A DNA stretch of 27,086 nucleotides from a virus. Shown here in pieces: positions 10,310 through 26,397 of this stretch; the first letter of the stretch is position 1; the number at the start of each line of letters is the position of its first letter. Below the pieces are notes generated by a model, which saw only the letters and a list, made by a program, of their open reading frames with translations, had not been told where the DNA came from and searched no databases. Made by a program: the position numbers and the translations under genes. Location: positions 1 to 27,086 of IMG/VR virus record IMGVR_UViG_3300045260_000021. The stretch is one strand, 5' to 3'.

Positions 10310-10945
10310 TTAATTATATTTGTCGGTGAGCCCGGTCCACACACGCGCCGCAAAATGCGGCGTATCTGCATCAAGCGACGCAATGATATCCATCATTGCG
10401 TCGTTATCTTCCCGACCATTTTTCCATATCTTAAAATATGAACCCGTTTTATAGCCGTTCTGAATTCGGAATTCGTTTAAAATGTTTTTACCCATATAGA
10501 GCTTATATAATCCATTAAACGATAAGTTGCAGGCGTTTTTTAAATGCAGAAATGAGGACAACTTGAAATCTTTCGTTAACAGCGTTTGTAAGGTGAAATC
10601 TTCAAGGGCCGTTCGACAGCAGCTATAAATTACGTTATCTGCAGGAAAATCTTTCTCCATAATAATATCCGATGTTTTACGTACCATCCCGTCTTCATTG
10701 CGCTGTAGCAGTGCGCTTAAACCGAAATGCCAAATATCGACTAGCTCTAAATGCGCTTGGCGAATATCTGTAGACTTTTCGGTCCACCATTTCCAATCAG
10801 TGTGTTCCATAAGTTCGGCGCATTCCACCCATATTGCGCGATACCAAGGAAAATTTTCGTCCCTCCATTGAGAATTTATTTTCATATTAAGCTGTTCCTG
10901 GCGGCTTAACATTTCTTTGAGTTTAACTTTGTATGTTGTCGACAT
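10310..10945 (-). CDS. Dimeric (all-alpha) dUTP diphosphatase
   Basis: Hydrolyses dUTP to dUMP and pyrophosphate, keeping uracil out of phage DNA and feeding dTMP synthesis. The 211-residue protein has the dimeric dUTPase / MazG-like metal site: E41-x2-E44 in a WVECAEL helix, an HTDWKWW loop (residues 48-54), and E67-x2-D70 in LELVDIWHF. The C-terminal half has the family's KLYMGKNILNEFRIQNGYKTGSYFKIW-type segment followed by GREDN. It is the last gene of the leftward early operon. An AAGGGG site, embedded in the end of the VRR-NUC gene 4 bases upstream, supports the start. Confidence 0.88.
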   Translation of the reverse strand: MSTTYKVKLKEMLSRQEQLNMKINSQWRDENFPWYRAIWVECAELMEHTDWKWWTEKSTDIRQAHLELVDIWHFGLSALLQRNEDGMVRKTSDIIMEKDFPADNVIYSCCRTALEDFTLQTLLTKDFKLSSFLHLKNACNLSFNGLYKLYMGKNILNEFRIQNGYKTGSYFKIWKNGREDNDAMMDIIASLDADTPHFAARVWTGLTDKYN

Positions 10946-11439: not shown

Positions 11440-11583
11440 CTAATCGTCGTAATCGTCGTAATCGTCGTAATCGTCGTAATCAGAGCTTAGACTAGCACTT
11501 GCGGCGTGTTTTATAATAATCCACATAATTGCTATAACGCCTATGACCAGCAATGTTATTTTTAATAACAGTATACAATCCAT
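11440..11583 (-). CDS. Tiny membrane protein with (DYD)4 C-terminal tail
   Basis: A 47-residue ORF, too short for most callers. Residues 4-25 (ILLLKITLLVIGVIAIMWIIIK) form one clear membrane helix. The short linker HAASASLSS is followed by DYD repeated four times and a final D, encoded by the 9-bp tandem repeat listed separately. The start lies 2 bases after the stop of the winged-helix gene, with AAAGGT 7-8 bases upstream. Its stop codon overlaps the AGGAGG of the next gene. This tight fit inside the operon is the main support. Topology (acidic tail in or out) and function are unknown. Confidence 0.65.
   Translation of the reverse strand: MDCILLLKITLLVIGVIAIMWIIIKHAASASLSSDYDDYDDYDDYDD
11441..11476 (-). 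repeat. 9-bp tandem repeat, 4 copies
   Basis: The plus strand carries TAATCGTCG four times in a row, then a partial copy. On the minus strand it encodes the DYD tail of the tiny membrane protein in frame. Copy-number change would alter tail length by three residues without a frameshift. Confidence 0.9.
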
Positions 11584-15541: not shown

Positions 15542-16420
15542 ATGGCTAATCTACCTCTGGCTTTCGCTAACGCTGGTGTACCTGATTCAATTGAAAACTT
15601 GGCACAATCGCTAAATCAAGTAGGATCGCAGACAGAAGGCGGCTTAAACGGTCGAGACCTTCTTAAACTCGACAAAAATTACGGATCTTGGGTTTTTGGG
15701 CAAGAGTCGCTAGAAATTGAAGAAAATGCGCATATCGCAATTAATCCCGCGTCTTTTCAGCACGGTTTTATTTCGTGGTCCGACCGCGATGGCCGCATAC
15801 TCGGCGAATCAATGACATCGGTTACTCAAACCATAAACCGCGCAGACCTGCCTCACACCGGCGAAAAGTGGGACGAACAATTATTGTTTGACGCCCAAAT
15901 AATAAATGGGGAGGATGAAGGGGTAGCACTTGTCTATAAGTCTACTGCGCATGGTGGTAAAGAATTTATCCGGAAAGTAATGCAGCGGGTAGCGGCTAAG
16001 ATGGCCACCGATAAAGAGTTCATAGTCCCCGTTATCACACTGTCCTCAACGTCTTATGTGCATAAAAATCCTGCGTATGGCACCATCTATAAACCTGCGT
16101 TTGATATCGACCATTGGATTAATTTCCAAGGCGAAAGGGAAGACGAAACCCCATTAATTGAAACGCCTAAGCGATCAGCTAAGCGATCAGCTAAGCGATC
16201 AGCTAAGCCCGCAGCGCAAGCGCCTGAAATTGTTGAGGATGAGGAGGACGATATAGAAGAGGAAATCGTAGAAGTAGAACCTGAAACTGAAACTGTGGCC
16301 GAAACGCCCTCAAGGCGTACACGCGCACGCAGTGCCGGTGCCTCTAAAACCACCGCAAATGAACCCCCAAAAGACGACGCACCACAACCAACCAACCGTC
16401 GAAGACGTCGTCGCGCATAA
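15542..16420 (+). CDS. Putative ssDNA-binding protein with acidic and Arg-rich tail
   Basis: A 292-residue protein. Residues to about 205 form a beta-rich domain with many aromatics (YGSWVFGQESLEI, INPASFQHGFISW, GEKWDEQLLFDAQIINGEDEGVALVYKS, VPVITLSSTSYVHKNPAYGTIYKPAFDIDHWINF). The tail has three KRSA units, an acidic block (EDEEDDIEEEIVEVEPE), and a final NRRRRRRA. It lies between the DUF2800 nuclease and the polymerase, the slot where related phages carry an SSB-like DUF2815 protein. SSB function is inferred from this slot and the acidic tail; no OB-fold match was verified. An ATG at 15536 is possible, but AAGG is then only 3 bases away; 15542 has 9. Confidence 0.7.
   Translation: MANLPLAFANAGVPDSIENLAQSLNQVGSQTEGGLNGRDLLKLDKNYGSWVFGQESLEIEENAHIAINPASFQHGFISWSDRDGRILGESMTSVTQTINRADLPHTGEKWDEQLLFDAQIINGEDEGVALVYKSTAHGGKEFIRKVMQRVAAKMATDKEFIVPVITLSSTSYVHKNPAYGTIYKPAFDIDHWINFQGEREDETPLIETPKRSAKRSAKRSAKPAAQAPEIVEDEEDDIEEEIVEVEPETETVAETPSRRTRARSAGASKTTANEPPKDDAPQPTNRRRRRRA
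16169..16204 (+). repeat. 12-bp tandem repeat, 3 exact copies
   Basis: AAGCGATCAGCT three times in succession, encoding the KRSA repeats between the folded domain and the acidic tail of the SSB-like protein. Perfect identity suggests recent slippage or expansion. Confidence 0.9.
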
Positions 16421-22199: not shown

Positions 22200-22652
22200 C
22201 TAACACGCAATGTAATTGAGTGTTGCTGATCCGCTGTACACATTCATGAACGTAGGCATGTCGCCCAGATGTTCTACATCCAACATTACAAATATTTCTA
22301 GGGGCGCCCCGCATTCGGAGATTAACGTGTCATCACTCTCGGCCATATACCCTGTGGTATTTGCATACAAATAAGCCGTCTCATTGAGTGTAAGCGCCGC
22401 GTAACCTGTATCAATAAACACTGATCCGGCTACGGCAATATCGCTGATAACCGCTTTATAATTAGCAGGGGTTGGCACGCTAACAGCGCATTGCACCTCA
22501 TATTCGATATCGGGATAAATCGATGTTACGTTAAAATTATTAAACGCAATATCAAATGAGCCGTCATTCATCGATAGTTCATAGTTGCATGCGGCGGAGG
22601 CGTTAAGGCAGGTAAAAAATGTGAGAAATAAAAACATTGATATCAATTTCAT
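22200..22652 (-). CDS. Secreted protein with four cysteines
   Basis: A 150-residue precursor: a signal peptide (MKLISMFLFLTFFTCLNASA, cleavage likely after ASA) followed by ACNYELSMNDGSFDIAF... The mature chain is beta-rich and has four Cys (in ACNYEL, VQCAVS, SECGAP and the terminal YIAC), fitting two disulfides in the periplasm or outside. The layout loosely recalls pilus or spore-coat-U-like secreted beta proteins, but I cannot assign it. The ATG at 22682 is rejected since GGAG lies 5 bases before 22652. The gene follows the LuxR-type gene in the same direction, so it may be regulated with it and act on the host surface. Confidence 0.75.
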   Translation of the reverse strand: MKLISMFLFLTFFTCLNASAACNYELSMNDGSFDIAFNNFNVTSIYPDIEYEVQCAVSVPTPANYKAVISDIAVAGSVFIDTGYAALTLNETAYLYANTTGYMAESDDTLISECGAPLEIFVMLDVEHLGDMPTFMNVYSGSATLNYIAC

Positions 22653-22706
22653 AGTCACTCCGATAGGTTTAGGATTGAGCACTATACCTTAAACATCAGA
22701 GTGACT
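22653..22706 (-). promoter_or_regulatory. Inverted repeat that can pair with the ribosome site of the secreted-protein gene
   Basis: AGTCACTC (22653-22660) and GAGTGACT (22699-22706) are perfect 8-bp complements 38 bases apart. In the leftward mRNA the second arm contains GAG of the GGAG ribosome site and runs up to the ATG. A TATAGT -10-like box lies between the arms. Transcripts from upstream could mask the site while transcripts starting between the arms could not. This is an inference from geometry. Confidence 0.4.
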
Positions 22707-22726
22707 GTGAGCCGATATGGCGCCAA

Positions 22727-23536
22727 TTAAATTTCGATTAATCCATGCTTAACCGCTGTATATACTGCCTGAGCGACGGTCTTTGACTGTAGCTGTCTTT
22801 TAACGGCGGCTATATGTTTATTAGCGGTGTCCGAACTTATGCACATAACCTTGCTAGCGTCTTTGAGCAGTAATCCGCGTGTTGCCATAATTTCTAGTAA
22901 TTTCAGTGGTTTATTACCCAGTCGATTGCCACGTACGTAGCGCTTATTTAACACAGGTGTAGGTAACAATCGCGTGCCGAAATGTACGATAGTGTGAGAC
23001 ATCATTGCCATTGCAATTCCGTTTTTTAGCGCACACTCGGCGATAGCGTCGCGGCTTAATCCTTTCGCGTAAAACATTAACAGCGCATTTACGCCGTCAG
23101 AGCGATATACCGAGCAGTACGCGTCGTAGTATTTATGCTGCTCCAGCAATTTAAAATACTGTAGGTCGTCGTCTAGGTGTCGTGTCGTTAAAGGCGCATT
23201 ACGGATATAGTCTGTCAATTTCGACAACATCACATCATCATCGCCATATTTTGCGTGGTCCTTTAGCATATTTAGCGATATAACCTCCTGTTTGCTGATA
23301 AATTCTGCAATATCATTCGGCAGTGTTGTTACGTGTTTTTCGGGTATTGTGTTCAACGTAACAAGGTAAAAATCGGAAAAGCCTAATTTTTTACAGAGAT
23401 GTTGTGTATGTATTTTAAAAGATTCTAGGTCTTTGCAATTTGATAACCGTGCGACAAAATTAAGACTGTTGTCATTTTCGGTGTGGGGGGTTTCGTTCGT
23501 TTCGTTCGTTTCGTTCGTTTCGTTCGTTTCGTTCAT
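22727..23536 (-). CDS. LuxR-type transcription regulator (quorum-sensing receptor-like)
   Basis: A 269-residue protein. After an (NET)5 N-terminal tail (residues 2-16), residues of about 25-190 resemble an autoinducer-binding domain by size and layout (KKLGFSDFYLVTLNTIP, NDIAEFISKQ, AYCSVYRSDGVNALLMFYAKG, a helix of about IAECALKNGIAMAMMSH). Residues 206-269 are a LuxR/GerE helix-turn-helix: KLLEIMATRGLLLKDASKVMCISSDTANKHIAAVKRQL, ending VAQAVYTAVKHGLI. The protein contains no Trp, although AHL receptors conserve two in the ligand pocket, so the ligand is probably different or absent. The ATG has GAGG about 9 bases upstream. It probably controls this accessory block or the lysis-lysogeny choice. 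Confidence 0.8.
   Translation of the reverse strand: MNETNETNETNETNETPHTENDNSLNFVARLSNCKDLESFKIHTQHLCKKLGFSDFYLVTLNTIPEKHVTTLPNDIAEFISKQEVISLNMLKDHAKYGDDDVMLSKLTDYIRNAPLTTRHLDDDLQYFKLLEQHKYYDAYCSVYRSDGVNALLMFYAKGLSRDAIAECALKNGIAMAMMSHTIVHFGTRLLPTPVLNKRYVRGNRLGNKPLKLLEIMATRGLLLKDASKVMCISSDTANKHIAAVKRQLQSKTVAQAVYTAVKHGLIEI
23491..23535 (-). repeat. 9-bp tandem repeat, 5 copies, encoding (NET)5
   Basis: TTTCGTTCG on the plus strand occurs five times in a row, the last copy with one change. It lies at the very start of the LuxR-type gene and encodes Asn-Glu-Thr units. Copy changes keep the frame. Confidence 0.9.
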
Positions 23537-23564
23537 TGTGTTTTCCTCATGGCGTAATTGACAG

Positions 23565-23600
23565 CCGTCAAGTGAGCTGCAACTCGCTTGACGGATTTTT
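23565..23600. other. 12-bp hairpin in the LuxR-gene leader
   Basis: CCGTCAAGTGAG and CTCGCTTGACGG pair over 12 positions with one G-T pair and a six-base loop. A T tract (23596-23600) follows on the plus strand, so it could end rightward (antisense) transcription. In leftward luxR mRNA the same hairpin would sit in the 5' leader about 30 bases before the start codon. Confidence 0.6.
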
Positions 23601-24042: not shown

Positions 24043-24753
24043 TTAATTACCGTTTGTGAAAATAGCGCCCCCAGTATTAGTGTTTGTAAAATCAGCGTCC
24101 GTAAAATTAGCGTCCGTAAAATTAGCGCCCGTAAAATCAGCGTTCGTAAAATTAGCGCCCGTAAAATTAGCGCCCGTAAAATTAGCGCCCGTAAAATTAG
24201 CGCCGTAGCAGTTGGCATATCGTAAATCAGCGCCCGTAAAATCAGCGCCGGTAAAATTAGCGCCCGTAAAATCAGCGCCGTAGCAGTTGGCATATTGTAA
24301 ATCAGCGCCCGTAAAATTAGCGCCCGTAAAATCAGCGTCGTAGTAGTTGGCATATCGTAAATCAGCGCCCGTAAAATTAGCGCCGGTAAAATTAGCGCCC
24401 GTAAAATCAGCGTCGTAGCAGTTGGCATATCGTAAATCAGCGCCCGTAAAATTAGCGCCGGTAAAATTAGCGCCGGTAAAATCAGCGCCGTAGCAGTTGG
24501 CATGTCGTAAATCAGCGCCCGTAAAATTAGCGCCGGTAAAAATTGCCTCACGTAAATCCATTTTACGAAGCGTTAAACCTGATAAATCCGTATTGGCAAA
24601 ATTAAGATCACGCGCATTAATTTTTTCGTCGAGTTGAGCCTGGCTAAATTTTTTACTGGGTGTACTGGGTGTACCGGGTGCACTAGGGGATACTTCGATA
24701 CCTAGCGCGGTGGTATCACTATAACGCTCATCATTTGATTGTGTGTCGTTCAT
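24043..24753 (-). CDS. Pentapeptide-repeat protein
   Basis: A 236-residue protein. Residues 1-50 are a polar, Ser/Pro-rich tail with a short helix (KKFSQAQLDEKI). From about residue 53 nearly every five residues follow A(D/N)(L/F)xx, mostly ADFTG, ANFTG and ADLRY, through to the end (about 35 repeats), which folds as a right-handed square beta helix. Such helices can mimic DNA and bind gyrase (as in Qnr/MfpA), or act as scaffolds; which applies here is unknown. Several repeats share the longer unit ...ADLRYANCYGADFTGANFTG. GGAG lies about 10 bases before the ATG. Confidence 0.88.
   Translation of the reverse strand: MNDTQSNDERYSDTTALGIEVSPSAPGTPSTPSKKFSQAQLDEKINARDLNFANTDLSGLTLRKMDLREAIFTGANFTGADLRHANCYGADFTGANFTGANFTGADLRYANCYDADFTGANFTGANFTGADLRYANYYDADFTGANFTGADLQYANCYGADFTGANFTGADFTGADLRYANCYGANFTGANFTGANFTGANFTNADFTGANFTDANFTDADFTNTNTGGAIFTNGN
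24205..24514 (-). repeat. Nested superrepeat in the pentapeptide gene
   Basis: The segment GTAGCAGTTGGCATATCGTA (with small changes) recurs at 24205, 24280, 24340, 24415 and 24490, with spacings 75, 60, 75 and 75 bp, all multiples of the 15-bp pentapeptide unit. The regular spacing fits duplication or loss of whole turns. Confidence 0.85.
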
Positions 24754-25069: not shown

Positions 25070-25384
25070 CTATTCAATAAATCGTATAAGTGCTTGATTT
25101 ATAACTATAATTTTGCAATATGGATTTTTGATCGATAAATAATCGACGATAAATTTGGGGGTGGAGCCTGCATCTAAGCGCAATAGACGCTCATGTTTTT
25201 TAAGGAGGGGGACATACGCAGCGACTTCATAGGGTTCGGTATTGTGAGGTATACCGGGGGCGTAACGCGCAAAATTCAGCGACACCTTTTTGCCCTCATA
25301 TAGGGTCGCAATTAAGTAGCACCCGTAGCGTCGGACGACAATTGTGTAGTACCCAGTAGCGCATTTTCTAGGCTTTATGTTCAT
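25070..25384 (-). CDS. Hypothetical strand-rich protein
   Basis: A 104-residue basic protein: CATGYYTIVVRRYGCYLIATLYEGKKVSLNFARYAPG gives three or four strands, then PYEVAAYVPLLKKHERLLRLDAG and a C-terminal helix. No family recognised. A CAGG site lies about 9 bases before the ATG, and a TATAAT box sits about 33 bases upstream on the minus strand, although no good -35 was seen. The last leftward gene before the palindrome and iteron region; it may belong to the same control region. Confidence 0.55.
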   Translation of the reverse strand: MNIKPRKCATGYYTIVVRRYGCYLIATLYEGKKVSLNFARYAPGIPHNTEPYEVAAYVPLLKKHERLLRLDAGSTPKFIVDYLSIKNPYCKIIVINQALIRFIE

Positions 25385-25452
25385 AATTTGACCTGTATCA
25401 ATAGTGGATATATCAAATTATAAAAGGGCGGGTGCCTGATTAAAATACATGC

Positions 25453-25540
25453 AATTTAATATATACGAAATTAAAAACAGAATTTTAACTGTATAGATAT
25501 ACAATTAAAATTCTGTTTTTAATTTCGTATATATTAAATT
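25453..25540. repeat. 88-bp near-perfect palindrome
   Basis: The 36 bases at 25453-25488 are the exact reverse complement of 25505-25540. The centre is TGTATA-GA-TATACA, pairing again after one mismatch (C25489 against A25504) and leaving a 2-base centre. The arms are AT-rich with ACAGAATTTTAA inside. Flanking bases do not pair further. It could extrude as a cruciform, or act as a bidirectional terminator since A and T tracts flank an inner stem. Confidence 0.93.
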
Positions 25541-25569: not shown

Positions 25570-25944
25570 GTTCGTTGACACTTTTGGGCCGTTCGTTGAC
25601 ACTTTTGGGCCGTTCGTTGACACCAGATTGACACTTTCGAAAAAAAAATTTCCTTATAAATCAATAACTTATTTTATATTATGTAAATGTGTTAATGAAT
25701 TATATATATAGAGTAGTCTGAGAAGTAGTAGTGGTAAGTTGGTTGACCAAACACGCGTTGAGACGCTAAATAGAAAAACCCCGTTCGTTGACACTTCTAT
25801 GCAGAATCAGCCGTAAGTCTTTGATTTATAACGATTTATTTGGTTTTTCGTTCGTTGACAGTTCGTTGACACTTTTGTAAGTCATTGATTTTATTGAAGT
25901 TTTTTTGGCCTAATGTGACTTGGAGTGTCAATCAAGTGTCAATC
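25570..25944. repeat. GTTCGTTGACA iteron array
   Basis: Six exact copies of GTTCGTTGACA begin at 25570, 25591, 25612, 25783, 25850 and 25861. The first two lie in identical 21-bp units (GTTCGTTGACAC plus TTTTGGGCC). A shorter relative, GATTGACACTT, occurs at 25626 and twice inverted (AGTGTCAATC at 25924 and 25935). Spacing of the first three is exactly 21 bp, two helical turns. This arrangement fits binding of one protein to several sites. Confidence 0.9.
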
Positions 25945-25990
25945 TACTTTTTTTAGTTTGCTATTTTCGACGTAAGTTATTGATTTATAA
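25654..25990. repeat. Four copies of TAAGTTATTGATTTATAA
   Basis: An 18-bp sequence occurs inverted at 25654-25671 and, in identical form, direct at 25973-25990. Two variants lie between, at 25814-25831 (TAAGTCTTTGATTTATAA) and 25878-25895 (TAAGTCATTGATTTTATT). The outer pair frames the right half of the iteron array. Confidence 0.85.
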
Positions 25991-26154: not shown

Positions 26155-26397
26155 GTGTTGTCGGGTGAGCAGATGAGGGCCGCATTAGCGGTTATGCGAT
26201 GGTCGCGAGCGCAGCTAGCCGAGTTGAGCGACGTTAAGGTTGGCACGCTCATGCGGGCGTTAGACGCTGACGGAGTGCCTCCGATGAACGCCCAGTTTTT
26301 AGCAAGCATTCAGCAAGCATTTGAAGCGGGCGACGATAAGGGCAGTATCGAATTTATTTACACGCCGGTACCCGGCATTGTATATCACCAGCGTTAA
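26155..26397 (+). CDS. Small XRE-like helix-turn-helix protein
   Basis: An 80-residue protein: LSGEQMRAALAVMRWSRAQLAELSDVKVGTLMRALDADGVPPMNAQFLASIQQAFEAG then IEFIYTP. This matches the compact HTH type with 'iTgaQiRAARaLLgWsq-eLAe-sgVs--Ti-r-E', usual in phage and plasmid regulators. The GTG at 26155 (or TTG at 26158) is the start, with AGGGGG 5 to 8 bases upstream. It is the first gene behind the strong promoter. It may regulate the adjoining repeat region, but its target is not shown. Confidence 0.68.
   Translation: MLSGEQMRAALAVMRWSRAQLAELSDVKVGTLMRALDADGVPPMNAQFLASIQQAFEAGDDKGSIEFIYTPVPGIVYHQR

Follow-up and report, generated by a model that had tools for sequence, protein, structure and literature searches.

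The LuxR receptors reported in phages bind AHLs of the host (PMC6456758, PMC10432266), and in phage LuxR modules luxR pairs with xre and acts through a smORF on cI (PMC10432266). The virus record IMGVR_UViG_3300045260_000021, which is covered from end to end by the window analyzed here (27,086 bases), encodes a protein that a sequence-only reading described as a LuxR-type receptor without tryptophan, possibly coupling lysis-lysogeny to quorum sensing and reading another ligand or none. The question raised by this locus is whether such a protein, here called P0001, senses AHLs at all. The reading favored on sequence comparison and structure modeling, with a probability of about 0.5, is that P0001 is a remodeled LuxR-type regulator that has lost the AHL pocket and would act without AHL, perhaps free of any ligand. 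A phage LuxR-type protein without the AHL-contacting set would show that the scaffold can be reused for other regulation, and the annotation "phage-encoded LuxR" does not alone mean quorum sensing; inspection of the pocket residues is simple and applicable to many phage proteins labeled LuxR.

The viral record

The virion genes of the record are P22-like (Hc3, PHROG match at 6.9e-94; DNA transfer protein, 2.7e-103) and have Vibrio phage 1.275.O and Pseudomonas phage AH02 as their nearest named relatives, Hc3 being 48% identical to its counterpart in Vibrio phage 1.275.O. The same record also encodes its own DNA polymerase, primase/helicase, helicase and exonuclease, for which the nearest relatives found are other metagenomic phages. 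It is a fragment that begins inside the counterpart of the AH02 capsid gene and is missing portal and terminase. No tyrosine integrase was detected in the window record or in nine related records, several of which, the window included, are fragments, and no Rfam family was found across the window. A dUTPase_2 family protein (PF08761, 3.1e-27) is encoded at 10310-10945 on the minus strand. Perfect short tandem repeats of 9-21 bp occur at 11441-11481, 16167-16208, 23490-23534 and 25570-25623; several of these in a small phage are unusual and they are possibly variable sites.

An intact ORF in an accessory block

The features that define the gene are the following.

22727-23536, minus strand: ORF P0001, 269 amino acids from ATG to stop with 0 Trp; divergent LuxR-type regulator
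23490-23534, minus strand: (NET)5-coding repeat, 5.0 perfect 9-bp copies by TRF (100% match), in frame
23542-23548, minus strand: likely Shine-Dalgarno sequence GAGGAAA of P0001 (AGGAAA motif, ATG 5 nt downstream)

The ORF proposed at this position is real, as indicated by its intact frame, the ribosome-binding-like motif and codon statistics (trained on core genes) that place its frame at the top of six, yet under the scores of the core genes themselves. The (NET)5 stretch at the N terminus is probably disordered, and the AF2 model has a pLDDT below 50 over residues 1-22. P0001 is set among small orphan genes that form an accessory block on the minus strand, in agreement with its earlier description as part of an accessory block of a P22-like podovirus; the small ORFs around it belong to no families and the block has no DNA relative within the phage collection. 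Searches of IMG/VR, GTDB species genomes, GenBank phages and PLSDB returned no reliable homologues of P0001 at the sensitivity of each search; viral and genome contigs were scanned by pattern, which detects close relatives only, and distant ones may exist. Related phages found via other genes are devoid of the P0001 gene. The sole homologue match was discarded as a chance occurrence of KYGDDDVM within an unrelated 717-aa ORF, which was read as an S46-type peptidase.

It is very improbable that P0001 is an accessory gene that is decaying or without function, set in a block that evolves fast. The protein is an orphan with a repeat-bearing N terminus and its codon adaptation is weak relative to core genes, but the frame of 269 codons is intact, the helix-turn-helix (HTH) is recognizable and a ribosome-binding-like motif precedes it.

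The likely C-terminal helix-turn-helix

22736-22924, minus strand: GerE/LuxR-type helix-turn-helix, residues about 205-267 of P0001

The C-terminal part of P0001 is likely a GerE/LuxR HTH, judging from sequence comparison. The Pfam profile GerE (PF00196) gives 12.4 bits against a curated cut-off of 23.5 (E 0.13), or E 0.0031 when the window record alone is searched, whereas in NCBIfam the last 69 amino acids alone match MadR at 3.4e-6 and TIGR03541 at 6.5e-5. Since Pfam stays below its cut-off, it is the NCBIfam matches that make the assignment credible; the HTH of the sequence-only reading is likely (NCBIfam E about 1e-5), though not "clear" as it was described. A profile of our own, built from 17 LuxR proteins, gives 19.9 bits for this part, the helices predicted by AF2 between residues 208 and 263 mostly have a pLDDT of 80-94, and the protein ends in QAVYTAVKHGLI, which is family-typical of GerE/LuxR. 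AHL-type LuxR proteins conserve E178, L182 and G188 in the HTH (TraR numbering; PMC10134790); the corresponding residues of P0001 are P210, L214 and G221, so that two of the three positions (L182 and G188) are kept and E178 is lost. A PHROG match to "sigma factor" (0.003) was rejected as the identity of P0001, as it spans the HTH only and the C-terminal signature is GerE-like.

The N-terminal domain

22973-23467, minus strand: autoinducer-binding-like domain, residues about 24-188 (weak profile similarity, partly circular model)

Residues 17-200 retrieved nothing related in Pfam, NCBIfam or PDB sequence searches. PF03472, one of the two profiles by which the quorum-sensing reading was to be checked, has no match in P0001, either in the Pfam scan or in a search of the window record at E<=10. 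The same reading held that a PAS or other sensor fold at the N terminus would speak against quorum sensing; none was found, P0001 having no Pfam match to PAS, GAF, REC or another sensor fold.

Weak similarity to the autoinducer-binding domain (ABD) emerges with profiles built from LuxR proteins of phages, plasmids and E. coli (17, then 21 sequences). With the 17-sequence profile the P0001 domain scores 8.4 bits, a value reached by one of 5000 shuffled sequences and by none of the roughly 500 unrelated ORFs tested; the 21-sequence profile gives 8.3 bits and none of 10,000 shuffles is as high, while reversed P0001 (-1.7 bits) and the PAS-type N terminus of VqmA from phage VP882 (-1.9 bits) fall below zero. 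The match is in register and involves chiefly the first helices and the first strand. In hhalign the whole protein aligns colinearly (41-267 with 27-243, probability 82) and the N-terminal part alone reaches a probability of 7-18 (p = 0.0013), again in register. The length of 269 amino acids lies within the range of two-domain LuxR proteins (230-270). The N-terminal domain may belong to the ABD fold as a very divergent member, or may only resemble it, because true ABDs, left out one at a time from the same profile, reach 62-171 bits against the 8 of P0001. The top NCBIfam match of P0001, the PA1136-family autoinducer-binding regulator TIGR03541 (8.4e-6 over residues 106-267; 25 bits against a cut-off of 216), was set aside as N-terminal evidence, given that the last 69 amino acids alone contribute 22.5 of the 25 bits.

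The structure models bear on the same point. From the single sequence AF2 yields an uninformative model (pLDDT 38); with nine LuxR sequences from viral contigs the pLDDT rises to 72.7 and the helix-strand order is that of an ABD. This alignment presupposes homology through its LuxR rows, which makes the model and its fold matches partly circular; with this proviso, the nearest solved structures are all AHL receptors (TraR, QscR, SdiA, RhlR, LasR) and the LasR ligand-binding domains show a TM-score of 0.64-0.71 by target length. The early helices of the single-sequence model (23-32, 37-50, 74-82 and 88-97) occupy nearly the same residues as those of the LuxR-aligned model, an agreement between predictions that may be considered partly independent of the alignment. 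The proposed LuxR-type two-domain architecture is accordingly supported in part, and weakly in its N-terminal half, by a profile score above shuffles, the hhalign probability of 82 and the model from the LuxR alignment.

An alternative that is unlikely but deserves serious weight is that a GerE-type HTH has been joined to an orphan phage domain unrelated to ABDs, devoted to protein contact or built on another small-molecule fold. Pfam, NCBIfam and PDB do not recognize the N-terminal half, homologues for an independent alignment are lacking, and free LuxR-type HTHs on other scaffolds are common in phages; against it stand the in-register ABD similarity above shuffles, the LuxR-like length and domain order, the colinear whole-protein hhalign alignment and the absence of a PAS/GAF/REC match.

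Replacement of the conserved pocket residues

AHL receptors conserve the pocket residues W57, Y61, D70, P71, W85 and G113 (TraR numbering; PMC10134790). In a MAFFT alignment none of the six is kept in P0001 (W57I, Y61I, D70N, P71M, W85L and G113A, at I76, I80, N89, M90, L104 and A139, respectively), and the hhalign register agrees with MAFFT for the first four positions. All six are retained in the nine viral LuxR proteins of the alignment, although seven of these were retrieved with a DNA pattern in which W57, Y61, D70 and P71 are obligatory, so that W85 and G113 provide the free evidence. Canonical AHL binding by P0001 is unlikely on this alignment, because all six conserved residues have been replaced. 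Beside the pocket, some 12 extra residues are predicted to form a helical insertion.

The absence of tryptophan, which the translation of P0001 bears out, says little by itself about a ligand. If Trp were as frequent as in the core genes (105 in 6581 amino acids), zero Trp in 269 residues would have a probability of about 0.013, but the trait is not specific to P0001, because the five ORFs that share its block are also nearly Trp-free (1 Trp in 643 amino acids) and it is a property of the whole block. Absent Trp as a sign of a new ligand was downgraded for this reason; the suggestion of another ligand or of none remains consistent with the loss of all six pocket residues, whereas the tryptophan argument offered for it is weak evidence.

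Comparison with known LuxR-type regulators

The closest reported phage systems are the LuxR proteins of Aeromonas phages phiARM81ld and Apop, which like P0001 are phage-encoded, combine an ABD with GerE and have a similar length (252 amino acids in ARM81ld, 269 in P0001; PMC6456758, PMC10432266). These proteins keep the AHL pocket and bind C4-HSL (PMC6456758, PMC10432266), whereas the pocket of P0001 is gone. Their genes form an xre-luxR operon by par genes, in temperate phages of plasmid-like type, and the cI repressor is inactivated through a smORF that they drive; neither arrangement was seen near P0001. The probability that P0001 is a canonical AHL receptor of this kind, tying lysis to host density, is accordingly minimal: it shares length and domain order with the phage receptors, but it retains none of the six pocket residues and lacks a PF03472 match, an xre partner and par genes were not found beside it, unlike in ARM81ld (PMC10432266), and no integrase was found.

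In Photorhabdus, PluR and PauR deviate from the WYDPWG motif at four positions and respond to pyrones and dialkylresorcinols (PMC10134790). They share with P0001 the LuxR architecture, the absence of a LuxI partner and substitutions in this motif (PMC10134790); they differ from it in altering four of the six positions and keeping Y and D, whereas P0001 alters all six and has an N-terminal domain that Pfam does not recognize. A LuxR solo with a remade pocket, sensing a non-AHL metabolite of the host or environment tied to phage gene expression, is a doubtful reading of P0001. It gains from the precedent of PluR/PauR, where four motif substitutions accompany other ligands (P0001 has six; PMC10134790), and from the insertion predicted beside the pocket; it loses from the lack of a synthase or ligand-related gene found nearby and from the retention of Y and D in PluR/PauR and of neither in P0001. 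More doubtful still is the bolder claim that the pocket of this LuxR-type protein, in a podovirus whose virion is P22-like, was completely rebuilt for a non-AHL signal outside the known AHL, DPO and arbitrium systems; if true, the expression of phage genes would be linked through it to a cue from the host or the environment.

The ligand-independent solos MalR, CarR and CepR2 (class E in PMC10134790) provide the model for the favored reading, the remodeled regulator acting without AHL, with activity proposed to be set by expression, though they retain all six pocket residues and P0001 none (PMC10134790). VqmA of Vibrio phage VP882 is, like P0001, a phage-borne sensor-type regulator with a LuxR-type HTH, but its sensor domain is a PAS domain, for which P0001 has no match in Pfam; BLASTP between P0001 and the phage VqmA gives 0.073 in the HTH region only, without meaningful similarity.

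Proposed mode of action and gene neighborhood

P0001 would be a transcription factor of LuxR architecture, in which a linker connects an N-terminal domain, most likely of the ABD fold, to a GerE-type HTH. Having lost all AHL-holding residues, the ABD-like domain would serve mainly for dimerization or as a scaffold, and the protein would bind DNA without AHL, its activity depending on how strongly it is expressed, as in ligand-independent LuxR solos. Its first target may plausibly be the accessory block in which it lies, for instance via a palindrome upstream of its start.

23565-23594, unstranded: inverted repeat CCGTCAAGTGAGCTGCAACTCGCTTGACGG, 30 nt, 28 nt upstream of the P0001 ATG
22200-22652, minus strand: downstream ORF with a signal-peptide-like N terminus MKLISMFLFLTFFTCLNASAAC; candidate co-transcribed neighbor

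The palindrome could be an autoregulatory operator or, on the plus strand, an intrinsic terminator; its half-site is found elsewhere no more often than expected by chance. The downstream ORF belongs to no Pfam or NCBIfam family and has only a marginal PHROG match of unknown function. Upstream of P0001, at 24043-24753 on the minus strand, lies a gene for a pentapeptide-repeat protein of 236 amino acids (PF00805, 9.2e-63), which is encoded by long degenerate tandem repeats. Neither an AHL synthase nor an XRE partner was found among the neighboring ORFs scanned, and no xre-luxR-type operon was seen at 22.2-25.4 kb of this fragmentary record. The quorum-sensing or lysis-lysogeny role suggested at first is unsupported because no integrase, AHL synthase or partner gene was found in the window, a fragmentary record, and PF03472 has no match.

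Several other elements occur in this region. The leader of ORF 22200-22652 can form a hairpin (22640-22725, minus strand, z -3.96) that covers the likely Shine-Dalgarno sequence and start codon and has a TATAGT motif in its loop; it would block translation of read-through transcripts and not of those from a loop promoter. A similar layout is seen at 25380-25424 (minus strand), where an inverted repeat with 12-nt arms lies over the start codon of ORF 25070-25384. Noncoding DNA at 25453-25540 contains an almost perfect 43-bp inverted repeat, its copies 2 nt apart. The noncoding stretch 25570-25945 is rich in CGTTGACAC, which matches 15 times in the window where 4.6 matches are expected; this stretch includes 21-bp tandem copies and inverted TGTCAA copies, and is a candidate for origin iterons, an operator array or the end of a mobile element. 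Further on, at 26155-26397 on the plus strand, a small ORF encodes a weak Fis-type HTH (Pfam 0.0031; PHROG transcriptional regulator, 1e-4).
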